Positions 4,466 through 19,027 of a stretch of 40,031 nucleotides of DNA are shown in pieces; position 1 is the stretch's first letter; every line of letters starts with the position of its first letter. The position numbers and the translations under genes were made by a program. Below the pieces are notes generated by a model. That model did not search any database and was not told the origin of the DNA. It saw only the letters and a list, made by a program, of their open reading frames with translations. This DNA is from Rhodospirillales bacterium. GTDB taxonomy: Bacteria; Pseudomonadota; Alphaproteobacteria; Rhodospirillales; Magnetovibrionaceae. The stretch is from the NCBI GenBank assembly GCA_024653965.1, contig JANLGW010000063.1, positions 1 to 40,031 on the forward strand, in the 5' to 3' direction.

Positions 4466-4604
4466 CTTAAGTAAATTGCCACTGTAATTTCCACAACTTA
4501 AAGATAACTAATCGTGTCGTTGACGCGATGAATGGTTGCGTGCAATTCTTTTTCAAACGGAAACGGAGTAACCGGTCGCCGTCATACTGGAAAGTGATTG
4601 AGTT

Positions 4605-5336
4605 ATGAGTTTAAGGCACATGATCAAAAAAACATGGGCGGTGGTTTTGATCATGCTCGTTGTTTTGTCCGCACCACATTTGTTGCGTGCTGAAGATAAC
4701 GATTTGGCTGAATACTATAATGATTTTTTACACAGAGGTGATGCCGCGGACGTTAATGCACCTGTCATTGCCAAGATGGACCGCAAGCTAACTTTTGTGG
4801 CGGTCAATGCCTCGACTAAGGCTGATGAGGAGATAATTTCGACGCTCGGCGGCTTGACGAGGTTAACGGGTATGCCGTTAAGGTACGGAAGTGTTCGCGA
4901 GAAGTTCAATGCATTTATTATGTATTCAGACAATATATCTGAAACATACAAAGGTGTTGGAAGCGCATTCATAAAGTCATTTTTAAAAGATGAGGCTCTT
5001 TACAATAAAATAGGTTCGGAGTTGTCCGGCGACGAACTGTGCTATCGGTTTGTGTTCTATCGCGGAGGTTATATTGCGGGTGGAATTCTTTTTGTGAACA
5101 ATCGTGCATTGAATACGGACATGCACGCAAGGTGCCTCTTGATGTGGGGGCTCGGATTGTATGGGTTTGAACCAAACAGAACGTCAAGCCTAAATTCCAT
5201 ATTGGCTCAAGACCATCACTCGAAGTTGACTGCGCTGGATGAAGCGGCTGTCAAAGATTTTTATTCTCGGGACGTGCCTTTAGGTCTTCCAATATCAGAA
5301 TTTCTAGAGTTGCTCGCAAGTAATTCTGGGATGTGA
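4605..5336 (+). CDS. Exported protein of unknown function, possibly DUF2927-like
   Basis: A 243-residue protein with an N-terminal signal peptide: MIKK followed by a hydrophobic stretch and LLRAED at about residue 30, so probably periplasmic. The C-terminal part (a Cys followed by MWGLGLYGFEPN, then LTALDEAAVKDFY) resembles the end of DUF2927 proteins, in which a Cys-led helix precedes a GL.N...S.....LT..D...+..LY pattern. This is a weak motif-level match made from memory. An alternative ATG at 4620 would give the cleaner signal peptide MIKKTWAVV. The gene is clearly more AT-rich than the flanking core genes, which suggests acquisition. No function is assigned. Confidence 0.7.
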   Translation: MSLRHMIKKTWAVVLIMLVVLSAPHLLRAEDNDLAEYYNDFLHRGDAADVNAPVIAKMDRKLTFVAVNASTKADEEIISTLGGLTRLTGMPLRYGSVREKFNAFIMYSDNISETYKGVGSAFIKSFLKDEALYNKIGSELSGDELCYRFVFYRGGYIAGGILFVNNRALNTDMHARCLLMWGLGLYGFEPNRTSSLNSILAQDHHSKLTALDEAAVKDFYSRDVPLGLPISEFLELLASNSGM

Positions 5337-5349
5337 TGGCGGAGGGGCG

Positions 5350-5469
5350 ATGCTGATGAAGAGGCCGAAGCAACCGGATTACGGTGCGGATTACGGTGAC
5401 AGTTTACTAAATACCCAACCAGTGTATTTCAATATCGATGCAGACGACTTCGCGCAGTTCATGGGCTGA
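5350..5469 (+). CDS. Possible 39-residue small ORF
   Basis: The reading frame starts at ATG 5350 (or ATG 5356) right behind a strong GGAGGGG at 5341-5347 and ends with TGA at 5467-5469. It encodes a small acidic peptide containing DYGADYGDSLL and ending DDFAQFMG. It sits between two unknown genes on the same strand with close spacing. Against it, the middle overlaps a short repeated DNA motif (5389-5411) and a 12-base tandem duplication, so the coding look may be coincidental. No known family is recognised. Confidence 0.3.
   Translation: MLMKRPKQPDYGADYGDSLLNTQPVYFNIDADDFAQFMG
5375..5398. repeat. 12-base perfect tandem duplication
   Basis: CGGATTACGGTG occurs twice head to tail (5375-5386 and 5387-5398), immediately overlapping the start of the 23-base motif at 5389-5411. 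This looks like a slipped-strand duplication of the front of that motif. Confidence 0.8.
5389..5411 (+). repeat. Dispersed motif GATTACGGYGACAGYTTACT, copy 1
   Basis: The motif GATTACGGTGACAGTTTACT plus AAA here recurs with two substitutions and one extra base at 6247-6270 in the same orientation. The two copies bracket the gene at 5487-6239. I recall very similar motifs being scattered through many proteobacterial genomes near Y1-type (REP-associated) transposase genes; that link is from memory and no transposase is present here. Confidence 0.6.
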
Positions 5470-5486
5470 GGGGATTGGGTAACGCT

Positions 5487-6239
5487 ATGCTTCTGGGCTG
5501 GCTTCAGATTATCTGGACTTCATTGCTCGTCTTACTGGCTGGGGGCGCAGTGTTGGCATGGCGGAAGCGAAAGCCGCGGTTGTTTTTTGCTGCCTCTATT
5601 TTGGTGGGGTTGGGCATTTGGGCCGGTTTTCGCGTGCCTATTCCTATTCCTTCTCATCCCGTCGGCAGTACGGGTGACATGACCAAGGTTCGCTTCGTCG
5701 TCTCCGGTCACGAATTCCGCATTCCCAAGGCGTATCTTTATTACATGCCGCAATGGAGAGGTATGGCCGAGGGGGATGAACCAATACTTATGCGGGCATC
5801 TGCCATTGATTTGATTCCGATAAGCAAAAGCGATGAGAACTTATTTAAAGGCCTGAAGTATTCTTATAACACTGTATTATTTGATTTAAACTACACACCA
5901 AAAAACAGCCTGTATAGTGATAGATACTTACGCCCGGAGGCGTTGGCTACGTGTAAAATGGAACTTGAAAATTTTTTGACGTGTGCGTCCGATTCTTATC
6001 AAAGCGTCGTATTTATATATAAAATTGACAATAATAATATCATTTTTGAATGTTCTGATGATATCGCTGTAAGTGAAATAAGCGCTAATTTATGTAGTGT
6101 TGAAGTATTTTTATTTCCACATGTTTATGTTGATTTTAAATTTGATAGACGGCGTCTTAATGAAGGGCCGGAGTATGTCGAACGTATTAGGCAGTTGCTG
6201 ATGGGTTTTTATGTGGGTCCGGTGTCGGCGGCCAGATAG
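5487..6239 (+). CDS. Membrane-anchored protein of unknown function
   Basis: A protein of about 250 residues. Two hydrophobic segments near the N terminus (about residues 4-24 and 33-50) are separated by a basic KRKPR turn and followed by a soluble domain of some 190 residues. That domain contains paired cysteines (ATCK, LTCAS, FECSDD, LCSVEV) and a probable periplasmic orientation. The ATG at 5487 is preferred; a TTG at 5475 would extend it by four residues but abuts the purine-rich GAGGGG. Base composition is markedly AT-rich in the second half, unlike the core genes. I recognise no family. Position and composition suggest it travelled with the neighbouring unknown gene at 4605. Confidence 0.65.
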   Translation: MLLGWLQIIWTSLLVLLAGGAVLAWRKRKPRLFFAASILVGLGIWAGFRVPIPIPSHPVGSTGDMTKVRFVVSGHEFRIPKAYLYYMPQWRGMAEGDEPILMRASAIDLIPISKSDENLFKGLKYSYNTVLFDLNYTPKNSLYSDRYLRPEALATCKMELENFLTCASDSYQSVVFIYKIDNNNIIFECSDDIAVSEISANLCSVEVFLFPHVYVDFKFDRRRLNEGPEYVERIRQLLMGFYVGPVSAAR

Positions 6240-6246
6240 AAAGCGA

Positions 6247-6270
6247 GATTACGGCGACAGCTTACTTAAA
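6247..6270 (+). repeat. Dispersed motif GATTACGGYGACAGYTTACT, copy 2
   Basis: Second copy of the motif at 5389-5411, here GATTACGGCGACAGCTTACT followed by TAAA. It begins 7 bases after the stop of the unknown membrane gene. The same orientation and the flanking arrangement suggest that both copies belong to one inserted unit. Confidence 0.6.
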
Positions 6271-6323
6271 AGGCTTATCCCTTTTTTCAGGGTGCCGTAA
6301 AATGTAGCCTACCCATCACGCGG

Positions 6324-6361
6324 TTGACAAAATACGTAAAATCAGTAATATACGTATATTA
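6324..6361 (+). promoter_or_regulatory. Antitoxin promoter with 16-base palindromic operator
   Basis: TTGACA at 6324-6329 and TAATAT at 6346-6351 are separated by 16 bases, a near-consensus sigma-70 promoter. A perfect 16-base palindrome, TAATATACGTATATTA, covers 6346-6361 and so overlaps the -10 box and probable start site. This is the expected place for autorepression by a Phd/YefM antitoxin, whose gene starts 32 bases downstream. A further ATACGTA lies at 6332-6338. Confidence 0.75.
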
Positions 6362-6392
6362 TGGATGCCAATTCCCCAGAAAGGAAATCGTC

Positions 6393-6650
6393 ATGGCACG
6401 GGTGACATCAACCGATTTTCAGAAGAATCCCGGCCTTTACCAAGACATGGCTCAACGCGAGCCGGTGTCGGTAACGAATCACGGCAGGGAGCGGACGGTT
6501 CTGCTCTCGGCGGAAGAATACCATCGCCTCAAGCGCCGTGACCGGATTGCGTTGGCGATCGAGGAGCTTTCCGACGAAGATATGGCGGCCATCTCGGCGG
6601 CGGAAGTCCCTGCTGAATACGCTCACCTGAACGACGAACTGGACGACTGA
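6393..6650 (+). CDS. Phd/YefM-family antitoxin, orphan
   Basis: An 85-residue type II antitoxin. The N-terminal DNA-binding half shows the family pattern FQKNPGLYQDMA, then PVSVTNHGRERTVLLSAEEY, and LKRRDR. The acidic C-terminal half (EELSDEDMAAI, PAEYAHLNDELDD) is the usual toxin-binding tail. The ATG at 6393 follows AAGGAA at 6381-6386 by 6 bases. It probably represses its own promoter through the palindrome at 6346-6361. The cognate toxin frame begins at the overlapping TGATG but stops after 13 codons, so this is an antitoxin without a partner. It could persist as a repressor, as an anti-addiction factor, or simply as decaying DNA. Confidence 0.88.
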   Translation: MARVTSTDFQKNPGLYQDMAQREPVSVTNHGRERTVLLSAEEYHRLKRRDRIALAIEELSDEDMAAISAAEVPAEYAHLNDELDD

Positions 6651-6691
6651 TGCCCATCGCCGCCCCGTTTGCGGGTTTAGTCATCGGTTAA
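6650..6691 (+). pseudogene. Truncated PemK/MazF-like toxin remnant
   Basis: Starting at the ATG overlapping the antitoxin stop codon (TGATG), 13 codons read MPIAAPFAGLVIG and then TAA. This matches the start of PemK-like growth inhibitors normally paired with this antitoxin type, which as I recall begin like MPxPxPxPGLVIxYxYLW. Nothing downstream continues the toxin. Instead a palindromic intergenic repeat begins 8 bases later, so insertion or deletion at that repeat probably removed the toxin body. Confidence 0.6.
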
Positions 6692-6698
6692 CGCCGCA

Positions 6699-6726
6699 TG
6701 GACCCCCGCCTTCGCGGGGGTGACGA
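6699..6726. repeat. Palindromic intergenic repeat (ACCCCCGC hairpin)
   Basis: ACCCCCGC at 6702-6709 and GCGGGGGT at 6714-6721 form an 8-base-pair stem with a CTTC loop, flanked by TGG and GACGAT. This is a widespread alphaproteobacterial intergenic hairpin (spurious peptide PAFAGVT). It abuts the broken toxin. Confidence 0.75.
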
Positions 6727-6795
6727 TGGGGGCGCGGGGGTGCAATGTGGGGTGTGGGTTTACTTACGCAGCCGCAAACTCGCCTGTTTATTTTT

Positions 6796-6862
6796 AACCA
6801 CAGAGCACACCGAGATCACAGAGAGGCTTTTCCTCTGTGTCCTCTGTGTCCTCCGTGGTGAA
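6796..6862. repeat. Large imperfect inverted repeat (ACCACAGAG element)
   Basis: The left arm, starting AACCACAGAG and ending ATCACAGAG, and the right arm, starting CTCTGTGTCC and ending CCGTGGTGAA, can fold into a long imperfect stem with a short GCTTTTC-type loop. Elements built from ACACAGAG units with this outer ACCAC/GTGGT pair are familiar as bacterial intergenic repeats. No coding role is seen. Confidence 0.7.
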
Positions 6863-7103
6863 CACTTCAACTAAATCCATTGTTCCGAACGGTTACGCTT
6901 GCTTTTTTCGGCAAGCTATGGTATATTTTCCTATTCGTTCGACACGGCGAAAACCGTTGGCTTTTCGAAACAAAAAAATGCCGTTCTTTGAAAACAAAAG
7001 ATAATTTGGCTTCGTTTCGTCACTTTTTTATTGTTCGCGCCGTTTGGCGGTGGCGGACGGGTAAAAAAGAGGAAATGAGGACCAAAGGAAGCCTTTTAAA
7101 GAC

Positions 7104-7131
7104 GTGGATGCCCGGATCAAGTCCGGGCATG
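7104..7131. repeat. Short palindromic intergenic repeat, copy 2
   Basis: ATGCCCGGA (7108-7116), loop TCAAG and TCCGGGCAT (7122-7130) form a perfect 9-base-pair hairpin. It is the inverted counterpart of the repeat at 4425-4465. It marks the right part of the accessory insert, about 160 bases before infA. Confidence 0.8.
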
Positions 7132-7228
7132 ACGATAAAAGGGCGGTGCGGGCATGACGTAAAAAAAGACGCAGGGATGTCTAATAAGGCAAACGGTTGC
7201 TGAAAAAGCCGAAAAAGGCGGAAAGAAC

Positions 7229-7258
7229 TTGACCTTTGCGGCGCAACAGGTCACTTAT
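7229..7258 (+). promoter_or_regulatory. Possible infA promoter
   Basis: TTGACC at 7229-7234 and ACTTAT at 7253-7258 are 18 bases apart, upstream of infA. TGACC and GGTCA arms (7230-7234, 7248-7252) form a small dyad across the spacer. The rest of 6863-7228 holds only the hairpin at 7104 and no convincing gene. Because the insert has separated infA from its usual upstream cluster, it needs its own promoter, and this is the best candidate. Confidence 0.4.
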
Positions 7259-7292
7259 TTGCCGCCTCAGCATTGAAAAAATAGAGAGATTG

Positions 7293-7511
7293 ATGGCCAA
7301 AGAAGAAGTACTTGAATTTTCCGGGGTTGTGACCGAATTGCTGCCGAACGCCATGTTCCGCGTGCAGTTGGAAAACGGGCATGAAATCCTGGCGCATACG
7401 GCGGGCAAAATGCGCAAGCATCGCATTCGTGTGCTTGCCGGGGATAAGGTCACGGTGGAAATGACCCCCTATGATCTGACCAAGGGCCGGATTACATTCC
7501 GCTTTAAGTAA
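7293..7511 (+). CDS. infA: Translation initiation factor IF-1
   Basis: A 72-residue OB-fold protein that occupies the 30S A site during initiation. The sequence is canonical: [13 protein letters not shown], [19 protein letters not shown], [19 protein letters not shown] and [10 protein letters not shown]. The ATG at 7293 gives the exact family length; an upstream in-frame start at 7236 would add 19 unrelated residues. The Shine-Dalgarno (AGAGAG) is weak. It is followed by maf, rng and yacG as in relatives. Confidence 0.97.
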
Positions 7512-9972: not shown

Positions 9973-10048
9973 GCCCGGGTAGCTCAGTTGGTAGAGCAGC
10001 GGATTGAAAATCCGCGTGTCGGTGGTTCAAATCCGCCCCCGGGCACCA
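9973..10048 (+). tRNA. tRNA-Phe (GAA)
   Basis: A complete 76-base cloverleaf. The acceptor GCCCGGG pairs with CCCGGGC. The D-arm is GCTC/GAGC, and the anticodon stem GCGGA/TCCGC encloses the loop TTGAAAA with anticodon GAA. The T-arm GGTGG/CCGCC carries TTCAAAT, and the CCA end is encoded. Its 3' part is repeated at 13442 and 17301, making this gene the apparent integration target of the two downstream modules. Confidence 0.97.
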
Positions 10049-10089
10049 TCATTCCAAACCCCTGGAACCTTTTGGTTTCGGGGGTTTTG
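10033..10089 (+). repeat. Direct repeat A: tRNA-Phe 3' end plus terminator (att-like)
   Basis: These 57 bases run from CCGCCCCCGGGCACC at the tRNA 3' end through the terminator to GGGGGTTTTG. They are identical to 13442-13498 over the full length. The overlapping 25 bases 10023-10047 are identical to 17301-17325. A perfect direct repeat that begins inside a tRNA and ends beyond it is the footprint left by site-specific integration at a tRNA gene. Confidence 0.85.
10056..10089 (+). terminator. Terminator behind tRNA-Phe
   Basis: AAACCCC (10056-10062) pairs with GGGGGTTT and the inner GAACC with GGTTTC around a TTTT loop. A short T-run follows. An identical copy sits at 13465-13498. Confidence 0.7.
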
Positions 10090-10210
10090 GTTTGGGTGTG
10101 TGGGTTCACACCATTTGTACCAGTAAAAGCAGGGAAATGGCCGTTTATGGTGGGAAAGCAGAACGCCGTTACGGTCGCCTGCGCGCCTGCTTTTAGCCAG
10201 GAGCGGACAA

Positions 10211-11761
10211 CTAGTCCCAACCCTTATTTGAACAGGTGCTACCCTTATTTAGATAGCAAACGGAAACGCACTTGCCGGAGCATAACGCTTTGTCGCCAAC
10301 ATAAATGGCGAGATTGAGGTCGTTCAAAACATTATGGGGGCGTATTGGGTAGATCATTTCTAGGTCTTCTGCCTTGTCCACCAATATCGAGGCGCCGCCG
10401 GAGACGGGGGTCCGCATCTTTAAAATGGGAAAAGGCTTGGCTACCCGATACAAGGGCGCGTTGGGTGCTGGAACCTGAATGACCATGTTTTTTAGGCCAG
10501 TCGTGTGCTTGGCCCGTTCACGGTGGACTTCAAGCGCAGGCGTTCTGTAACCCGATTCAAACTCTTCCATTTTCGCGGGGCGCAAATAACCCAGCCGCAC
10601 CAGTTCCTCGATGCTGGCTGTTCTCAGGAAGCGCTCGAAGTCAAGTTGTTGGGCGGCGGGCATTTCAAAAGCCCATTGAGAGATGACATCATCAGGCTTT
10701 ACCCGCGGTGCTTCCCAGCGTTCGGTAATGTTTACTTCCCCTTCTTGGGGTAGGGTGACTTCCAGCGCATTGGGGCGGTCGTAGTTGCGTGCGAGACGGA
10801 TTTGCCCCACCTCTTTGTGAGCGTCTACTCGATCTAGGGACCGACCCGTCACGCCTTTGAAAAAAGCATCGAAGTCCATCAGGTCAGGTCCTGCATCGTG
10901 CACGTAAGAATCATAGCCGCATGGCGTGTTGCCGTCTTTAGTTGAGAACATATGCACCGGCACGCCCCGCGGGACATTCGCGGCTACCTGGCGAGCAAAC
11001 CCCCACAGCAAAATGCCGTCTAACTTCGCGCCATCATCGAGCGCTATGTTCCAAACAGTGGGCTCGCGCGCCATTAGCACCAAGAAGATCGGCTTATTTC
11101 CCCTCGGGATGCCAACGTCAACCTGTGACACTTGGTAGGGGTAATCTTTGAATTTTAAAGCGGATGATTCGGCGGGATTGCGCAGCGCGAGACCATAGAC
11201 GAAAGCGTCCGATCCAACCCAATCTTGCTTGCATGATTTTTTAGGACGGAGGAGCTTTTCATACTTGGCTAAACGCTCGGAAACCATCTTGTGAATGCCT
11301 TCCGGGGTTTGTCCGTGCAATAGGGATGCCACCGATTCGAATAGGCGATGCTCCGAGGCACCGTAGAAGCGGACATCGGTGGGCTTGTATTCGACGTGGG
11401 GCGTTTGGCCAGACTTTTTTTCTCTGGTCCGCAGTTCCTCCTGCATTGCTAGCTCCATTTGATATTCTCTGGAAAAGTAATTGTATTCACGAGGTTGCAA
11501 GAGGTTCTTGGCTCGCTCTGCCTCCGACATACCGCCTTGTTGCAGTTGTGCTTCGAGATCCAAAAAATCCAAATCCTCGCTGAGGCGTGCCGCGTCCGCC
11601 AAAGATATCGTTTTTAAGACCTTTTGTGCGCTGGTCTTAATCGCTTCGGGTGAGCTGGCGTCGAATACTACAGCGCTGCTCTGCGCGGACGAGGGCAGTG
11701 GCAAAAGCGCAAGCCAGCAGCCGAGCATCATAGGCGCAAACGCAAGGATGGAATGTTTCAT
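10211..11761 (-). CDS. Secreted protein of unknown function, paralogue of its upstream neighbour
   Basis: A 516-residue protein with an N-terminal signal sequence (hydrophobic stretch to PSSAQS at about residue 28), so exported. The middle carries PIFLVLMAREPTVWNIAL, then a D.AKL pattern and ARQVAANVPRGVPVHMF. This is clearly homologous to PIILVLRGISPNIWNLEI and SQAVANLPSGVPIEFM in the adjacent gene. The N-terminal half is rich in charged helices (SEAERAKNLLQPRE). The C terminus is cysteine-rich (CSGKCVSVCY, then STC), possibly disulfide-bonded. Its start codon overlaps the upstream stop by 4 bases (ATGA), so the pair is translationally coupled. No family is recognised and no enzyme motif was found. 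Confidence 0.75.
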   Translation of the reverse strand: MKHSILAFAPMMLGCWLALLPLPSSAQSSAVVFDASSPEAIKTSAQKVLKTISLADAARLSEDLDFLDLEAQLQQGGMSEAERAKNLLQPREYNYFSREYQMELAMQEELRTREKKSGQTPHVEYKPTDVRFYGASEHRLFESVASLLHGQTPEGIHKMVSERLAKYEKLLRPKKSCKQDWVGSDAFVYGLALRNPAESSALKFKDYPYQVSQVDVGIPRGNKPIFLVLMAREPTVWNIALDDGAKLDGILLWGFARQVAANVPRGVPVHMFSTKDGNTPCGYDSYVHDAGPDLMDFDAFFKGVTGRSLDRVDAHKEVGQIRLARNYDRPNALEVTLPQEGEVNITERWEAPRVKPDDVISQWAFEMPAAQQLDFERFLRTASIEELVRLGYLRPAKMEEFESGYRTPALEVHRERAKHTTGLKNMVIQVPAPNAPLYRVAKPFPILKMRTPVSGGASILVDKAEDLEMIYPIRPHNVLNDLNLAIYVGDKALCSGKCVSVCYLNKGSTCSNKGWD

Positions 11762-13209
11762 AAGTTGCTCCCGTCCTTGATGAAGTAATAGCTGTTTGCG
11801 CTTCCGTCATCGTCCGGGATGGGAACGCCTTCGGGCACAATGATTCTGACACCAAATCCGGAAAATGCTTGTATATAGGGAGATGGCATGGCCATGGCCG
11901 TTGGTAATTTTATCGGCTCCAGCACAGTAAAGGCTTCGCCGGGCTTCAGGTGATGCGAGGGCGGCTTGGTGGAGACCAAATCCTTGTAAGCGGCCTCGGC
12001 TTTCATTTCCCAGGCACGGATATCTTCTGCCGTGGTATGACGCGCCTTACCCTGTTGCACCAACACCTCAAACCCTGCCGTCATGCCTTCGACCAGTGGA
12101 GCCTCGGAGAGATGGGCCAGCTCGCCCATCACCAGCATCTGGTCGCGGACAATGGGGGGAGGCGTCCAATCTTCCGAGGAAGCACTTGCACCATTCGGTG
12201 CAACGATGAAGCGATTTGGCGTAGGGAGAGCATTCTTGTCCCTATTGAAATAAATGGGGACCCCTCTCAAATCCTCCACCGGCCACGGCATTTCGGGTGC
12301 GGGCTGGCCACTGACATTGAGGGTCGCGCGGGTCAGATTTTCAGTAAAGGGGCGGCAGCTTTCACGGTACCCTTGACGATCAACCATGAATTCGATGGGA
12401 ACTCCACTGGGTAAGTTCGCGACGGCCTGAGACATGTAGGAGATAACGAAAACGGCTGCCAACTCAGCGTCGTCCTCGATTTCCAAATTCCAGATGTTCG
12501 GCGATATGCCCCGTAACACCAAGATAATGGGATAGGGGTGCCGTTTCACCAAAACGTCGATGCGCGTTGTTGCCTGAGGTTCTTTAGGAAAATGGTATTG
12601 CGGTTGTATGCCGCCTCTACCCGTGCCGAGCAGAGGGACGATCCGTGCGTTGGGTGCAATGTGTTCAAAGGAGCATGTTTTCTCGCCGAGCCTAAGAAGT
12701 GGATTGTTTCGCCTGGCTTCAGCCTGGTTGCGAAGGCGTGCCAACGCTTGCGCGGTGTGCTGGCGGGCTTCATCGAGCGTCAGGTTGTGCAGAACCCCAC
12801 CATACTTGCGGAATATGCTGGTGGCATCACGGCTCATGACAGCTTTGTCGCAAGGCGTCGGATGAGGAAGAAACAGCGAAACGGTGTTGTAAAAGGCAGG
12901 GCCGACCAGTTCCTTCAAGACCTTTTCAGTAAGGGATGGGGTAGACAGGGCCGATCGAACTTTGCCTAATATTTCCAAGTCTTGCGACAGCGCACGGATT
13001 TCCGCGTACGTGTGGCTTTCTCCCATAGCCTGCGTGCTCTTCAAAAAGTCACACAGACTTTCCCCGTTAAAGCGTGGGGTGTCCGCGCGTGCCGATGCGT
13101 ACGGTGCAATGGACACCACAACACAGGTTATCAGCATTATGCGGCTGGCCCATCGTCTGGACTTACAAGGCAGTCCAATTGCTCCTAATGCGATCATATC
13201 AAACACCAT
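11758..13209 (-). CDS. Exported protein of unknown function, first gene of paralogous pair
   Basis: About 483 residues from the ATG at 13209; ATGs at 13197 and 13137, or a TTG at 13266, are alternatives. A basic region (CKSRRWASR) followed by a hydrophobic stretch and YASARAD looks like a signal peptide cleaved after ARA. The central segment PIILVLRGISPNIWNLEI through VANLPSGVPIEF matches the neighbouring gene, showing duplication and divergence. GAGAGG immediately precedes ATG 13209, spacing too short to decide the start. It is transcribed first and overlaps the next gene by 4 bases. It lies entirely inside the tRNA-bounded module, and no function is recognised. Confidence 0.72.
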   Translation of the reverse strand: MVFDMIALGAIGLPCKSRRWASRIMLITCVVVSIAPYASARADTPRFNGESLCDFLKSTQAMGESHTYAEIRALSQDLEILGKVRSALSTPSLTEKVLKELVGPAFYNTVSLFLPHPTPCDKAVMSRDATSIFRKYGGVLHNLTLDEARQHTAQALARLRNQAEARRNNPLLRLGEKTCSFEHIAPNARIVPLLGTGRGGIQPQYHFPKEPQATTRIDVLVKRHPYPIILVLRGISPNIWNLEIEDDAELAAVFVISYMSQAVANLPSGVPIEFMVDRQGYRESCRPFTENLTRATLNVSGQPAPEMPWPVEDLRGVPIYFNRDKNALPTPNRFIVAPNGASASSEDWTPPPIVRDQMLVMGELAHLSEAPLVEGMTAGFEVLVQQGKARHTTAEDIRAWEMKAEAAYKDLVSTKPPSHHLKPGEAFTVLEPIKLPTAMAMPSPYIQAFSGFGVRIIVPEGVPIPDDDGSANSYYFIKDGSNL

Positions 13210-13248
13210 CCTCTCGCGAATGATAGCATGACGCAAACGCGAAGCAAT

Positions 13249-13327
13249 CCTAAGGCAGATGTGCAAACCGTCTGTTTTCGGTCAGAAGCAGACATTGGCG
13301 ATAATTCTCTCTGACGTCTGCCTTAGG
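13249..13327. repeat. Inverted repeat in control region of the paralogous pair
   Basis: CCTAAGGCAGA (13249-13259) and TCTGCCTTAGG (13317-13327) are perfect 11-base inverted arms 57 bases apart. The loop contains a second partial dyad, TCTGTTTTCGGTCAGAAGCAGA. The element lies just upstream of the minus-strand pair and inside the right end of the first module. The remaining stretch 13328-13583 contains direct repeat B and the GH3 leader, with no other gene. Confidence 0.6.
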
Positions 13328-13441
13328 TCTAATAGCGGTCAATAGGGTTTGGGGAAGTGCTGTGCAACCCCCTGCGCTCTGGTGCGTGGTTTATTTCCCA
13401 AACCTTTTCATAACGCGTTGAAAACGCAGAATTGTTATAGG

Positions 13442-13498
13442 CCGCCCCCGGGCACCATCATTCCAAACCCCTGGAACCTTTTGGTTTCGGGGGTTTTG
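13442..13498 (+). repeat. Direct repeat B: tRNA-Phe 3' fragment plus terminator
   Basis: A 57-base exact copy of 10033-10089. Only the last 15 bases of the tRNA body (CCGCCCCCGGGCACC) remain in front of the shared terminator, so it is a remnant and not a functional tRNA. The preceding bases (TTATAGG) differ from the intact gene. It separates the first module from the glycoside hydrolase module. Confidence 0.85.
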
Positions 13499-13583
13499 TC
13501 TGACCGTTGGCTGTTGCCGCCCTTGACTCTTGATGAAACATCTAGAGGATTTGACAGAGGATGGCCCTGAACGCAGGAATATG

Positions 13584-15857
13584 ATGTCGACACACAAACA
13601 GGAAACGATGAAAACGGCTATCGACGCGCTGATGGCGAAGATGACGCTGGGCGAAAAGCTGGGTCAGCTCAATCTGGTGACGTCGAACGTTCCCATCGAC
13701 CCCGAACGGGCAGACGACGTTCGGGCGGGGCGAGTGGGCGGCATGCTGGGCGGGCTGTTTCCCTGCACCTTCGGCGTCGATGGGCCTTCTGGTTTACGCC
13801 AAATTCAGGAGATTGCCGTTCACGAATCCCGGCTTGGCATTCCCTTGTTGCTGGGCTTTGACGTGATCCATGGTCATCAGACCGTGTTTCCCATACCCTT
13901 GGCTCAATCGTGTTCCTGGGATTTGGATCACATTCAAGCCGGTGCCCGTATCGCCGCGCGCGAAGCCAGCGCCAGCGGTCTCAATTGGGCGTTTTCGCCG
14001 ATGGTCGACATCGCGCGCGACCCGCGCTGGGGACGCGTGGCCGAGGGCGCGGGCGAAGATCCCTATCTGGGGTCCCGGGTCGCAGAGGCCATGGTGCGCG
14101 GTCTGCAAGGCGAAGATCTTGCGGCTGCCGACAGCATTATGGCCTGCGTTAAGCATTTCGTTGGTTACGGCGCGGTCGAGGGGGGGCGCGATTATAACAA
14201 CGCCGACATGAGCCCAGCCAGACTCCACGACATCTATCTGCCGCCGTTTCTCGCCGCGGTCGAGGCTGGGGCGGGATCGGCGATGCTGTCTTTTTCCGCG
14301 CTCAACGGACTGCCTTCCCACGCGGACCGGAACCTTATGGAGCAATGTTTGTCCGGGGTTCTTAAAGTATCAGACTTCGACGCCATTCCGGAGATGATCG
14401 CGCACGGCTTGGGCGATGAAAACGGCCAAATCGACGAAGATGATCCGCTGCAGACCCTGACCGAGCGCGCGCTTCGCGCCGGGGTTCAGATGGACATGAT
14501 GGGGCATGGTTACACCACGCGTTTGGAAAAGGCGCTGGCCGCCGGCAGGGTTACGGAGGCCGAAATCGATAGCGCCTGCCGCGCTGTTTTAGAAGCCAAG
14601 TGGAAATTGGGTTTGTTCGCTGAACCGTTTGCCCGCTTTGATCCAGAACGGGAGACCCGTGACATTCTGACAACGGGCCATCGCACCGTGGCGAGAGACG
14701 TTGCCGCGGATTGCTGTGTGCTGCTGAAGAACGACGGCGATTTGCTTCCCCTGAAAAGGTCCGGCCTGAACCTGGCCGTGGTCGGACCATTGGCGGACGA
14801 CCGGTGGAATATTCTCGGACCGTGGAGTTTCCAGGGAAATCCAGACCACGCCGTGTCGATCCTCGACGGGATACGGAACGTTGGCGGTGACGACGTCCGA
14901 ATTCAATGCGCCAAAGGGGCAAATGTGACGGAGGATCGGCGCATGGTTGAGTTGCTCAACTTTGCGGGTCCAAAGGTTTCCATCGATCCGAGGTCGCCCG
15001 CAGATCTCATCGCGGAGGCGGTCAGCGCGGCGCAAGACGCCGACGTCGTCGTGGCGGTGTTGGGCGAAGCCGCGGAAATGTCCGGCGAAGCCGCGTCACG
15101 CCTTGACATCGGCATTCCCGAAAATCAACGCGACTTGCTGATGGCTTTGCACCGGACGGGCAAACCGATTGTGTTGGTGACCCTCAACGGTCGCCCTCTG
15201 ACCCTTCCGTGGGAGGCCCAGAACATCCCTGCCATTTTGGTGTCGTGGTTTGGCGGCAGCGAGAGCGGAAATGCCGTTGCCGAGTTGCTGTTCGGAATCC
15301 GAGCGCCGTCCGGCAAGCTGACCACCACGTGGCCACGGCATGTCGGTCAGGTTCCGCTGTCATACGACCGCCCGACCACCGGCCGTCCCGGCGATCCGGG
15401 ACAAGACCCGGGCAAATACAGTACCCGTTGTTATCTGGATGGCCCGTCGACGCCCTTGTTCCCGTTCGGTTTTGGCTTGAGCTATACGACCTTCGCTTAT
15501 GGACCGGTGACGGTTGACAAGGCGGAACCCTGCGATGACGAGATCCTGACCGTTTGCGTCGATGTGACCAACACCGGGGGTAGGGCAGGGCGTGAAGTCG
15601 TGCAGATGTATGTCACAGACCCGGTGGCCAGCATGGTCCGTCCCGGCAAAATGCTAAAAGGGTTCCAAAAAATAAGCCTGGAAGCAGGGGAGACAAAAAC
15701 CGTCACGTTCACCCTGAGCCGCCAGGATTTGCAATTTCACAACCAGAACCTTGATCTGGTTTGGGAGCCGGGGCGATTTGTGATCGGTGTTGGCCCCCAT
15801 GCGCAAGACGTGCGGACCGTGACGGTTCGTTGGCGCGCTCGCGGTTTTACGGCGTGA
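13584..15857 (+). CDS. Glycoside hydrolase family 3 beta-glucosidase, BglX-like
   Basis: About 757 residues that hydrolyse terminal beta-D-glucosides. Domains in order: GH3 barrel to about residue 370 (KHFVGYGAVEGGRDYN; nucleophile Asp264 in VSDFDAI), GH3 C-terminal domain (VGPLADD; GEAAEMSGEAASR with the acid/base region), and a fibronectin-like domain (NTGGRAGREVVQMYV). ATG 13584 has AGGA 5 bases upstream; 13581 and 13530 are alternatives. No signal peptide is seen although E. coli BglX is periplasmic, so a cytoplasmic site is likely. Compared with BglX, about five residues including the conserved WGF just before the nucleophile strand seem missing. It converges on a GH1 gene 33 bases away. 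Confidence 0.92.
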   Translation: MSTHKQETMKTAIDALMAKMTLGEKLGQLNLVTSNVPIDPERADDVRAGRVGGMLGGLFPCTFGVDGPSGLRQIQEIAVHESRLGIPLLLGFDVIHGHQTVFPIPLAQSCSWDLDHIQAGARIAAREASASGLNWAFSPMVDIARDPRWGRVAEGAGEDPYLGSRVAEAMVRGLQGEDLAAADSIMACVKHFVGYGAVEGGRDYNNADMSPARLHDIYLPPFLAAVEAGAGSAMLSFSALNGLPSHADRNLMEQCLSGVLKVSDFDAIPEMIAHGLGDENGQIDEDDPLQTLTERALRAGVQMDMMGHGYTTRLEKALAAGRVTEAEIDSACRAVLEAKWKLGLFAEPFARFDPERETRDILTTGHRTVARDVAADCCVLLKNDGDLLPLKRSGLNLAVVGPLADDRWNILGPWSFQGNPDHAVSILDGIRNVGGDDVRIQCAKGANVTEDRRMVELLNFAGPKVSIDPRSPADLIAEAVSAAQDADVVVAVLGEAAEMSGEAASRLDIGIPENQRDLLMALHRTGKPIVLVTLNGRPLTLPWEAQNIPAILVSWFGGSESGNAVAELLFGIRAPSGKLTTTWPRHVGQVPLSYDRPTTGRPGDPGQDPGKYSTRCYLDGPSTPLFPFGFGLSYTTFAYGPVTVDKAEPCDDEILTVCVDVTNTGGRAGREVVQMYVTDPVASMVRPGKMLKGFQKISLEAGETKTVTFTLSRQDLQFHNQNLDLVWEPGRFVIGVGPHAQDVRTVTVRWRARGFTA

Positions 15858-15890
15858 TGCTGTTCGGCAGCTTCACGCAGACGTTGGTGA

Positions 15891-17228
15891 TCAGGCGCGG
15901 CTTTTACGGATCAAATCCGCATACCACCTTGCCGATGTCTTTGGCGTGCGTTTGAGCGTTTTAAAATCGACATGGATCAGGCCAAATGGGTTGGCGTAGC
16001 CGGAACCCCATTCAAATGCGTCGAGCAACGACCATGCGAAGTAGCCGCGCACGTCGGCGCCCTCATTCATCGCTTGGTGCATGGCCGTGATGTAGGCGCG
16101 AAGATACTTGACGCGCCGGGGGTCATCGATAATGCCGTGTTCGTCAATCTTGTCGTCTCCGCCGCACCCGTTTTCGGTAATATAGATGGGCAAACCATAG
16201 CGGTGATGCAGCGTGAGCAGCTCCTCGCGGAACATGTCGGGAAAGATCGGCCAGCCAATCTCTTCCCTGGGGGCGTCTTCAGGCGCCGAACCCCAGCCGA
16301 ATTCCCACAGGAAGTTTGGCTCGTGCTTGGCAAAGATGGGGCCATAGTGGTTGAGGCCAAACCAATCCAGCGGGCGACAGATTTTCGCCATATCGCCGGG
16401 TTGGACGTAAGGTTCGATGTCTCGCGCGATGCGCGGCGGGTATTGCGCCAAGATTTGCGGATCGGGGAAGGCCAGGTTCCAGTGTTCGTTAAGAAGTTCG
16501 GCCGCGGCCCGGTCCTCGGGTGTGTCTTTTTCCGGCAAGACGGGCTGGCAGTTGTGCACGGCCCCAATCGAAGCTCCGGGAACGGTGGAACGAATGACGT
16601 CGACGCCCAAGCCATGGGCTAGGTTGACATGGTGAATGGCCTGCAGGTGGGACGAACGATCCGTAATTCCCGGCGCGCCCCAATCGATGGCGTAGCCAAA
16701 CATTGTGAACACCGAAAATTCGTTGAAGGTTACCCAATGTTTGACTCGATCCTTGAAGCGGTGTGCGACGATGGCGGCGTAGTCGGCATACCGATAAGCC
16801 GTATCGCGGTTAATCCATCCCCCTTGATCCATGAGGGCCTGAGGAAGATCCCAATGATACAGGCACAGCCACGGCTCTATGCCGACTTCGAGCACGGCGT
16901 CAACCACGCGATCATAGAAATCCAGGCCTAACGGGTTGATGGCTCCACGTCCACGCGGCAAAATTCTTGGCCACGCCACAGAGAAGCGGTAGGCATCAAG
17001 GCCCATGTCCTTCATCAAGGCGATGTCTTCGGGGTAGCGATGATAGTGATCACAGGCCACGTCACCCGTGTCGCCGTTGGTGATCTTGCCCTTGGTGAGG
17101 CAGCGCGTGTCCCAAATGCTGGGGCCGCGGCCATCTTCCTTTACGGCACCTTCAATCTGGTAACTCGAGGTGGAAGCACCCCATACAAAATTTTTGGGCC
17201 ATTTTAAAGTCGACGGTTCAACGCTCAT
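15891..17228 (-). CDS. Glycoside hydrolase family 1 beta-glucosidase
   Basis: A 445-residue GH1 barrel enzyme that cleaves beta-glucosides by retention. The N-terminal signature FVWGASTSSYQIEGA is present, and the acid/base Glu170 lies in TFNEF, where the family usually has TFNEP. The nucleophile Glu352 is in YITENG, and the aglycone-site W..LDAFEW segment is near the C terminus. ATG 17228 has GGAG 9 bases upstream; a GTG at 17246 is less likely. No signal peptide, so cytoplasmic. Together with the GH3 gene it suggests use of cellobiose-like sugars, but no sugar transporter is in the module. Confidence 0.95.
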   Translation of the reverse strand: MSVEPSTLKWPKNFVWGASTSSYQIEGAVKEDGRGPSIWDTRCLTKGKITNGDTGDVACDHYHRYPEDIALMKDMGLDAYRFSVAWPRILPRGRGAINPLGLDFYDRVVDAVLEVGIEPWLCLYHWDLPQALMDQGGWINRDTAYRYADYAAIVAHRFKDRVKHWVTFNEFSVFTMFGYAIDWGAPGITDRSSHLQAIHHVNLAHGLGVDVIRSTVPGASIGAVHNCQPVLPEKDTPEDRAAAELLNEHWNLAFPDPQILAQYPPRIARDIEPYVQPGDMAKICRPLDWFGLNHYGPIFAKHEPNFLWEFGWGSAPEDAPREEIGWPIFPDMFREELLTLHHRYGLPIYITENGCGGDDKIDEHGIIDDPRRVKYLRAYITAMHQAMNEGADVRGYFAWSLLDAFEWGSGYANPFGLIHVDFKTLKRTPKTSARWYADLIRKSRA

Positions 17229-17300
17229 GGGTCGCTTCTCCAGCACGGGGTAACGAGGTGTCGTTCATCAAATCTTGCGCTGGCTCGGGACGAATGACAA

Positions 17301-17325
17301 TGGTTCAAATCCGCCCCCGGGCACC
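17301..17325 (+). repeat. Direct repeat C: third tRNA-Phe 3' fragment
   Basis: These 25 bases, from TGGTTCAAAT to CCGGGCACC, are identical to 10023-10047 of the intact tRNA-Phe. The flanks differ on both sides; after ACC the copy continues CTTATTTC, so the CCA end is not complete. It lies just before a different terminator. It closes the glycoside hydrolase module and is best read as the displaced original 3' end of the tRNA gene. Confidence 0.8.
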
Positions 17326-17333
17326 CTTATTTC

Positions 17334-17366
17334 AAAAGGCCTCGGTAGAGATGCCGGGGCTTTTTT
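17334..17366 (+). terminator. Terminator behind tRNA fragment C
   Basis: AAAAGGCCTCGG (17334-17345) can pair with CCGGGGCTTTTTT (17354-17366) across a short loop, followed by the T-run. With no upstream gene left on this strand apart from the tRNA fragment, it looks like the orphaned terminator of the ancestral tRNA-Phe gene. Nothing else is seen in 17367-17526 apart from a short duplication of TTTGGAGATT. Confidence 0.7.
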
Positions 17367-17526
17367 GTGCCTGAGCGGGTGGAGACGATAAATCTTGGTG
17401 AAACGGTGTGATGTTGTACAATTGCGCCGATTTTGGAGATTGCTTGCTTTGGAGATTCCTTGGGAACGCTCGGTTTAAGCGAACGGACACAAACGCTCCA
17501 CCCCCCACAACTTGAAAAGGTGTGTC

Positions 17527-18129
17527 ATGACGAACATTCCCACGGAGCAGAATATCCGCTTGATCGACACCACCGCCAACCCGGCCCCCCTTGGCCTGTG
17601 CGCCTTCGGCATCACCACCGTATTGCTCAACTTGGCCAACGTGGGCGCGTATCCGCTGGACGCCATGATCTTAGGCATGGGGGTTTTTTATGGCGGACTG
17701 GCCCAAGTCATGGCCGGTATGATGGAGTGGAAAAAGAACAACACCTTCGGCACCACGGCTTTTACCTCCTACGGCTTTTTCTGGCTCAGCCTAGCGGGCA
17801 TCGTCATGCTTCCCAAAGCGGGTCTGGGTGTGGCACCCGGCCCGGAAGCGATGGCGGCTTATTTGGCGGCCTGGGGTATCTTTACGGCAGTGTTGTTTAT
17901 CGCCACGCTCAAACTCAACCAAGCCCTTCAAGCCGTGTTTCTGACCCTGACCGTGCTGTTTTTCCTCCTCGCCATCGGTGATCTCACCGGCAATGTTTTG
18001 ATTAAAACCATCGCCGGTTTTGAAGGTCTGCTGTGCGGCGCATTGGCCGTCTACACCGGACTTGCGCAGGTCTTAAATGAGGTTTACGGACGGGTGGTGG
18101 CACCGCTCAATTTTAAGGTGGGTAAATGA
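17527..18129 (+). CDS. satP: GPR1/FUN34/YaaH-family acetate uptake transporter
   Basis: A 200-residue inner-membrane protein with six hydrophobic segments. The family signature near the N terminus, [19 protein letters not shown], matches the NPAPLGLxxFxxTT pattern of acetate/succinate-proton symporters such as Sat[21 protein letters not shown] is also characteristic. AAGG at 17517-17520 precedes ATG 17527 by 6 bases. It stands alone downstream of the tRNA-linked modules and probably represents the first core gene after them. Likely substrates are acetate or other small monocarboxylates. Confidence 0.9.
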
Positions 18130-18184
18130 CGGTTTTCATCTTTACGGTCTTGCGCACAGAAAGACGGATTGCAGATTGGCTAAG

Positions 18185-19027
18185 ATGAAAAAACACCTTT
18201 TTGTTGTGTGCGCCGCCCTCGTGGTGTTGCTCTGTTTGTCCAGTGGTGCAAAAGCCGATTTGGGGCCAAAACCAACGGTCGATATCGATCTTGTTTATAA
18301 TCATCAAAAAATTGCCGATACCAGCTTCGGCGCAAAAATGCTGGGTTGTTATGATCAAGAGCTTGTACAGAACGAAATCGAGCAGGACCAAGATACTGTC
18401 GCGCAATTGAGAATCAGCAGATTTGACGCTGACGCTCAATGTTATTGGCAGCCTGCGCCCATGGCATGGGGTGGATCATGCAGCGAAAGTCATTGTCAGT
18501 TTAGTTATTTTCCGCCCAGTGAATTCAGGCTGGCGGTATACATTCCGAGTTTGGACAAGACCTTCGTTACCGACAAAATCACAAGAGAAAACTTTGCCAG
18601 CCGTTACCGGGTCGAATTATCGGCGGATGGTTCGGCCACAATAAACGAGACAACTTCTCTTTGGGCGTCAATCCGCATTCCAGATTTTGTTGGGGCATTT
18701 CTGCTCACGATATTCTTCGAGATGCTGGTCACTTGGATCTTCGTCACGGCGCAGAAGCTTCCCAGAAAAAAGATCCTGCTTTACGTGCTTGGGGCAAATG
18801 TCCTCTCTTTGCCAGCGGTTTGGTTTTTGTTTCCGCTGATCGACTTGCCGGAATTGATCGTCATCGCGATTTTTGAGCTCTTTGCGGTCCTCTTTGAAAC
18901 GTACTTCATTTATCATTTCTGCAAACAGATGCTTTCCTTCAAACAAACGCTTTTGTTAAGCGCATTGAATAATTTTGTGAGTTTGTTTGCCGGCGGAGCT
19001 GTCTTTGTGGGGGTGATGTTTTTTTAG
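18185..19027 (+). CDS. Membrane protein of unknown function with signal peptide and about four C-terminal helices
   Basis: A 280-residue protein. MKKHLFVVCAALVVLLCL with SSGAKAD at about residue 25 is a clear signal peptide. An exported domain of some 140 residues follows, carrying several cysteines (LGCYDQ, AQCYWQ, GSCSESHC). Four hydrophobic helices then fill residues about 165-280 (FVGAFLLTIFFEMLV; LLYVLGANVLSL; ELIVIAIFELFAVLF; LLLSALNNFVSLFAGG). ATG 18185 is chosen because upstream frame extension overlaps satP. No family name is offered; the exported-domain-plus-membrane-domain layout is like small sensor or transport accessory proteins. Confidence 0.7.
   Translation: MKKHLFVVCAALVVLLCLSSGAKADLGPKPTVDIDLVYNHQKIADTSFGAKMLGCYDQELVQNEIEQDQDTVAQLRISRFDADAQCYWQPAPMAWGGSCSESHCQFSYFPPSEFRLAVYIPSLDKTFVTDKITRENFASRYRVELSADGSATINETTSLWASIRIPDFVGAFLLTIFFEMLVTWIFVTAQKLPRKKILLYVLGANVLSLPAVWFLFPLIDLPELIVIAIFELFAVLFETYFIYHFCKQMLSFKQTLLLSALNNFVSLFAGGAVFVGVMFF

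Follow-up and report, generated by a model that had tools for sequence, protein, structure and literature searches.

The question raised by the 40,031-nt stretch of DNA considered here (positions 1 to 40,031 of contig JANLGW010000063.1 of a Rhodospirillales bacterium, hereafter the window) is how two small groups of genes came to be bounded by three copies of the 3' end of a single tRNA gene, tRNA-Phe, with no integrase beside them. The genome of the window (G000) is a draft of 2,990,654 bases in 153 contigs. The answer favoured here, with a probability of about 0.82, is that two genomic islands without an integrase, resembling cis-mobilizable elements (CIMEs), have accreted in the window at a tRNA-Phe hot spot.

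The integration site is an intact tRNA-Phe gene (anticodon GAA) at 9973-10048 on the + strand, as identified by ARAGORN. Copy 1 (10033-10089, + strand) comprises the last 16 nt of this gene and the following terminator, and forms the left boundary of module 1. Copy 2 (13442-13498, + strand), again a 16-nt tRNA-Phe end with the same terminator, is identical to copy 1 at 57 of 57 positions, and copy 3 (17301-17325, + strand) is identical to tRNA positions 51-75 at 25 of 25. An original prediction, made from the sequence letters, had described the intact gene with 57- and 25-base perfect copies in the same orientation, bounding two modules of about 3.41 and 3.87 kb; these claims are borne out, the starts of consecutive copies being 3409 and 3869 nt apart. 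Module 1 thus occupies 10049-13441 (3.39 kb) and module 2 occupies 13458-17300 (3.84 kb), and no integrase was found in either. A stable terminator-like hairpin stands after every copy (z of -4.9, -4.6, and -3.9 for copies 1, 2, and 3). The terminators at 10049-10089 and 13458-13498 are identical to each other and unlike the genus-type terminator at copy 3 (17326-17372, + strand), which resembles module left ends in two congeneric genomes (G001 and G002).

The 15-mer CCGCCCCCGGGCACC, common to all copies, has three exact matches in the genome, all within the window and in one orientation, and two further places at one mismatch, while the reversed pattern, used as a control, has none. A chance origin of the copies is therefore rejected. 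The original prediction had named the occurrence of the repeats at many unrelated loci as an outcome that would speak against it; this is not the case, since the 15-mer is matched exactly nowhere else in the genome.

The right end of module 1 resembles a known type of attachment site. The region 13334-13457 consists of an inverted-repeat arm (13346-13356 and 13394-13404; 11 nt, 91%), a TAAC...TTG box (TAACGCGTTG, 13411-13420), a 22-nt spacer, and 16 nt of tRNA-Phe, the part up to 13441 (13334-13441, + strand) being the attR arm. Ends of this kind, closing on a copy of the last 16 nt, are referred to as class B right ends; they are also found at copy 3 of G009 and in G017:C408, and each of the three lies beside different genes. 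Near the one in G017:C408 (L103) are a Cas9 gene and a Cas1 frame that is truncated where the contig stops.

The pattern of box, 22-nt spacer, and core occurs in 57 contigs (58 matches) of a genome-contig collection, in which about one is expected by chance according to our own arithmetic. The titles of 56 of these contigs name taxa that we take to be alphaproteobacterial, and the other is a metagenome-assembled genome (MAG) of Dehalococcoidia. A contig of Magnetovibrio sp. N3S-Bin_6 (Magnetovibrionaceae, Rhodospirillales) carries the same site as G009:C1, and Roseovarius sp. SP300 (L191) has two class B patterns that flank a short integrase frame at a distance of 2.2 kb from each other. The pattern was also found in 24 viral contigs. 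In 20 of these, a tyrosine-integrase frame faces the core from its 3' side, with its near end no more than about 0.4 kb away (in one, L255, frame and core overlap); in L254 the integrase lies at the other end, and in three no integrase is visible within the stretch examined. The viral integrases were called with our own profile, and the one checked in Pfam scored above the PF00589 cut-off. A longer core, beginning in the tRNA anticodon loop, is present in seven viral stretches from six contigs, and four of the seven have an integrase no more than about 0.35 kb away. A 24-mer taken from the left end in the window itself has no exact match in the viral contigs. Because the pattern stands beside an integrase in the phages, the right end of module 1 is half of a phage-type attP with the usual neighbouring gene missing.

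Right-end model R1 has a match at E 0.01 in 24 of the 317 genomes of the order, some of the weak ones being chance-like. Related ends lie at the far side of two full elements, one at tRNA-Met (G007:C31) and one at tRNA-Glu (G002:C36), each of which encodes a tyrosine integrase at about 80 bp from its tRNA, the identity between the two enzymes being 60%. Model R2 has matches in at least 280 of the 317 genomes, most of which are tRNA-Phe genes, because the model includes tRNA bases.

That no integrase or visible remnant accompanies the modules, as had been predicted, agrees with the searches. PF00589 has no match on the window's contig, and tblastn of 43 recombinase entries (42 distinct, among them a 472-residue frame of L155 unconfirmed as an integrase) against the window yielded nothing at E 0.01, hence no integrase remnant. 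Serine recombinase Pfam domains are absent from the module proteins, to which that search was confined, no family-wide serine recombinase search having been made in the window or genome. Five PF00589 proteins are encoded in the genome, none of them at tRNA-Phe. One is XerD (above the NCBIfam cut-off), another is XerC-like and lies beside housekeeping genes, one sits directly at tRNA-Lys, and another lies in a tRNA-Thr island. A 302-residue Xer-like recombinase (G000:C111, L001) scores below the NCBIfam cut-offs for both XerC and XerD and lies about 16 kb from the tRNA-Lys integrase; it has no known site and is a candidate helper for the modules. A resident helper at tRNA-Phe is thus rejected among the five, and the suggestion that a recombinase using the tRNA-Phe end as its att site might be found elsewhere in the genome was not substantiated.

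The same locus is variously filled in relatives. With up to two mismatches allowed, the 24-nt 3' end of tRNA-Phe was matched in 17 of 18 genomes of the family, probably Magnetovibrionaceae; seven of the 17 have more than one such end, and in five of the seven they lie on one contig. G002 has three modules behind tRNA-Phe, of 1.7 kb (an F5/8-type galactose-binding protein), 5.1 kb (cytochrome c, a solute-binding protein, and a PAS histidine kinase), and 11.4 kb (YcaO with ABC and efflux genes). G001 has at least two modules, G009 two, and G015 one. When the distal copies of G001, G002, and G003, which belong to the same genus as the window, are compared with the uninterrupted locus of G017, from another genus of the family, homology extends from tRNA base 29 onward through the next genes. 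Such a starting point is the footprint of a site-specific insertion, and the comparison with relatives, whose tRNA-Phe sites are differently filled, supports the repeated site-specific insertion originally proposed. A 143-residue gene found beside many copies was considered as the native neighbour and rejected, since in G015 it lies inside a bounded module; it is merely a common neighbour.

A second type of right end, class A, comprises copies starting near the anticodon (tRNA 29-76), with about 200 bp upstream common to G001, G002, and G003. The class A end of G002 (L041:8039-8272) has five matches in the 18 family genomes, itself included, all adjoining tRNA-Phe 3'-end copies. A strong class A end is also present in G075, from another family (118 bits, counting the tRNA part); the 7 kb module beside it has no integrase match and carries genes for a nucleotidyltransferase, a glycosyltransferase, and a phosphoglucose isomerase. 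Class A and class B right ends are conserved independently of the cargo.

Absence of an integrase is common among such modules. Of the 24 tRNA-Phe modules with both ends found, 21 lack an integrase (1.0-12.3 kb) and three have one (26.4, 7.0, and 15.3 kb); within the window's family all ten lack it, and PF00589 searches agree. The 26.4 kb island of G033 was covered by two neighbouring stretches. The integrases were called with our own profile, which already contained two of the three positives; those of G259 (a 203-residue frame) and G254 score above the PF00589 cut-off, and that of G033 is a weak match below it. Outside the 24, no integrase was found with the first profile in modules of Reyranella soli, an Afifellaceae MAG, and Methyloceanibacter methanicus. 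Cargo of modules elsewhere includes a tannase with an FAA hydrolase, GNAT acetyltransferases, a glycosyltransferase family 25 protein, a TonB receptor, and an amidohydrolase. Two short tRNA-Phe modules (L142 735-1418 and L148 5032-5735; 1.0 and 1.5 kb) have cargo with a possible role in defence or stability, namely an AbiU2-like protein and a HigBA-like pair. A module of one or two genes adjoins a copy that bounds integrase-bearing DNA in both G249 and G254.

The 3' end of tRNA-Thr served as a control. It was matched in ten of the 18 family genomes, four of which have more than one copy. A PF00589 match lies beside a copy in the tRNA-Thr arrays of G000, G004, and G017, whereas G007 has two modules without one. 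The island of the window's own genome (G000:C27; L228, L229, L105) is 15.8 kb long with a 445-residue tyrosine integrase near its right copy; that of G007 (G007:C25; L230, L231) has three copies and two tandem modules with no integrase match, and with genes that appear by eye to be regulatory or sensor-like. On these small numbers, integrase absence is the rule at tRNA-Phe in the family and less so at tRNA-Thr. Since multiple copies occur at tRNA-Thr as well as at tRNA-Phe (four of ten and seven of 17 genomes), and published CIMEs and ssrA islands are also tandem, the original view that such arrays are unusual is not upheld. Among the matches listed, from a search coverage excluding most subscription journals, no publication was found that describes arrays or CIMEs at tRNA-Phe in this group of bacteria, or that treats tRNA islands lacking an integrase as a subject of their own.

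These observations suggest the following history for the two islands. The tyrosine integrase of an incoming phage or island would have recombined the 3' end of the tRNA with a matching 3' end on the element. The element would thereby have restored the tRNA and brought its terminator, the displaced old 3' end becoming the distal boundary. A later insertion would have taken place again directly beside the tRNA, which would make module 1 younger than module 2. Module 1 retains its left boundary and a full tRNA-Phe attP-type right arm, and the integrase gene that adjoins such a site in phages would since have been lost.

Several points weigh against this account. The identity of copies 1 and 2 extends 41 nt beyond the tRNA and is followed by immediate divergence, which is more than a simple core exchange needs; it may reflect the same kind of left end on both modules, or gene conversion. 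Copy 3 has no recognisable arm (12.1 bits with R1, compared with 11.5 at the intact tRNA), so that it is the copies that define module 2 as an independent element. A further tRNA-Phe 3' end lies on a different contig of G017, whose locus is therefore possibly not fully native. The comparison includes no empty allele from the window's own species, the relatives are mostly draft assemblies, and several tRNA-Phe contigs stop shortly after the tRNA. Finally, the set of 24 modules is not random: both ends had to lie within stretches of at most 20 kb, which biases it toward short modules.

The principal alternative is that the modules are non-autonomous satellites that keep their att arms under selection, are moved in trans by the tRNA-Phe integrases of passing phages or islands, and are still mobile. 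It shares the entry route with the islands of the favoured reading and differs in present mobility. Phages with a matching attP and an integrase do exist, the class B arm of module 1 is intact, and the cargo often consists of one to a few complete genes. Moreover, one genus has class A ends at three positions that are not orthologous (ahead of the YcaO gene, ahead of the 143-residue gene, and at copy 1 of G002), G075 has one as well, and none of these modules has an integrase in the stretch examined, those of G003 and G004 running off the contig. However, the arms of module 2 and of G002 copy 1 are missing or gapped, no integrase is seen in any tRNA-Phe module of the family, and no recent transfer of a module between genomes is seen. 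The YcaO module beside the distal copy in G001, G002, and G004 also speaks against continuing movement: its fourfold-site divergence is 22-35%, and that of two flanking small genes in the same three pairs is 10-54% (28-42 fourfold sites each). As the module has diverged about as its neighbours have, it appears to have been inherited rather than recently moved, and looks resident and vertically transmitted. Active satellites are on balance considered unlikely. Less probable still is that RecA swapped modules by way of the tRNA, the terminator, and flanking genes after a first phage-type insertion, leaving the copies as hybrid relics. The common terminators and the 57-nt identity past the core fit such exchange, as does copy 2 of G001, which in the alignment is like a class A end minus about 95 bp between short similar words; but the homology start at tRNA base 29 in three genomes points to site-specific insertion, and arms beside phage integrases point to site-specific recombination for the insertions themselves. 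Chance or an assembly artefact might be suspected in a draft of 153 contigs, but a single contig spans all three copies and genomes of several families, assembled independently, show this architecture again, so that this explanation is given very little weight.

The original prediction had left open whether the modules are satellites moved in trans or fixed remnants of larger islands. The two are not fully separable, although the vertical appearance of the YcaO module favours fixed remnants for the old modules. The arm of G002 copy 1 is gapped and that of copy 3 in the window is not recognisable. Together with the YcaO module, the absence of a tRNA-Phe recombinase, and the lineage-limited cargo, these gapped or missing arms make it preferable to regard the modules as accreted remnants that have CIME properties and no longer move, rather than as active satellites. 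Without the arrival of an element that brings a tRNA-Phe integrase, both modules of the window are probably immobile; their movement in trans is possible but unproven.

The cargo of module 1 consists of a 516-residue protein with a signal-peptide-like N terminus (10211-11761, - strand) and its paralog of about 500 residues (11758-13266, - strand; about 481-502 residues, the start codon being uncertain), the two being divergent at about 24% identity. Neither has a Pfam family above cut-off or an NCBIfam family, and the predicted structure of the 516-residue protein is unusable (predicted local distance difference test score, pLDDT, of 33). Module 2 carries a BglX-like GH3 beta-glucosidase (13530-15857, + strand; start codon uncertain) and a GH1 beta-glucosidase (BGL; 15891-17246, - strand). 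The GH3 and GH1 enzymes and the two unknowns are thus as predicted, while the secretion ascribed to the unknowns is seen only as signal-peptide-like N termini judged by eye. Among the four cargo proteins, two of them unassigned and with PHROGs not searched, no satellite genes (replication, capsid-related, or regulatory) were recognised.

The module 1 cargo was found in one of the 317 genomes of the order, the window's own. Within the order, this cargo was therefore gained or kept in this lineage only. The case in which all close relatives carry the same genes, named beforehand as one that would count against the prediction, thus does not apply to module 1, the module covered by this check. One module 1 protein had no match in plasmids or in phages, and one cargo protein queried against the genome-contig collection, with its 19 pattern matches, yielded no relative.

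Beyond copy 3, the sequence at 17326-19027 is closer to the module left ends of G001 and G002 than to the usual flank, although the likeness covers about 50 nt, most of which is also common to the usual flank. In G001, G002, and G003 the last copy has the 143-residue gene after it; the window's genome lacks this gene. Given this left-end type and the missing gene, the acetate uptake transporter gene adjoining copy 3 (17512-18129, + strand) belongs either to the native flank or to the start of a third module; the latter may be the case, with the distal end lost. No further right end that would close such a module was found past copy 3 in the window with models R1 or R2. Elsewhere in the window, a low-GC stretch (4500-7500, down to 0.445) lies between an ArsC-like gene and maf, an interval that is short in G004, G012, and G017.

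How far the modules correspond to known systems can be judged feature by feature. In Streptococcus salivarius, CIMEs in tandem with integrative and conjugative elements (ICEs) or integrative and mobilizable elements (IMEs) are described as cargo between att sites without recombination or mobility genes, 1.2-13 kb long (PMC7563491). The window modules are similarly tandem, att-bounded, and without mobility genes, and some of the S. salivarius elements likewise carry carbohydrate-metabolism genes (PMC7563491). In contrast, the latter belong to a Firmicute, occupy the 3' ends of protein-coding genes, and were detected only beside ICEs or IMEs (PMC7563491), whereas the window has tRNA-Phe, an alphaproteobacterial host, and no autonomous element left in the array. 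Module 1 has both attL and attR flanks (the tRNA end at 10033, and the full class B arm and core at 13334-13457), module 2 has copies on both sides and no recognisable arm, and neither has integrase, conjugation, or mobilisation genes. Of an origin from an ICE or IME by deletion no remnant was found, and the module 1 arm matches phages as well as islands.

Among the Dehalococcoides ssrA islands, 15 lack and 16 have an integration module, and the authors suggest that those without may be CIMEs (PMC3146451). These islands are also tandem and have the 3' end of an RNA gene at their boundaries, but involve a serine recombinase and the tmRNA gene (PMC3146451), instead of the tyrosine-integrase att arms and tRNA-Phe seen here. 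The symbiosis island ICEMlSym-R7A of Mesorhizobium loti is inserted at a phe-tRNA gene, the 3' end of which is repeated over 17 bp at the right end of the island (PMC4334631), compared with 16 nt in the window; this is a comparison of lengths and not of attR sequences. The island is 502 kb long and conjugative, with a P4-type intS 198 bp from the tRNA (PMC4334631), a gene of which the window modules have no counterpart. Tycheposons, as summarised in a paper on Methylophilaceae, are likewise tRNA-bordered cargo islands, but are described there with a tyrosine recombinase (PMC10872708), none of which was found in the window.

A wider possibility, held to be rather doubtful, is that the Rhodospirillales share a pool of integrase-free cassettes with conserved att ends at tRNA-Phe, moved in trans by phage or island integrases; if so, tRNA-Phe would act as a slow cassette array with a non-resident helper. 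With its arm intact, module 1 offers a direct test object for whether orphan islands are dead or mobile with a borrowed integrase. The signature of box, 22-nt spacer, and tRNA-Phe end may be used to find orphan islands in draft genomes that are invisible to searches starting from integrases. A close likeness in layout is with the phages and islands at tRNA-Phe, mostly of Alphaproteobacteria, which share with module 1 the right-side arm, the box, the fixed 22-nt spacer, and the core; tested against them, module 1 has the 16-17 nt 3'-end repeat with an attP-type arm but not its own integrase, whereas the whole elements carry an integrase next to the core. The stack is a well-marked case of a known route of bacterial gene collection, and gives a detailed view of how small gene sets pile up behind one tRNA gene and persist after integrase loss.

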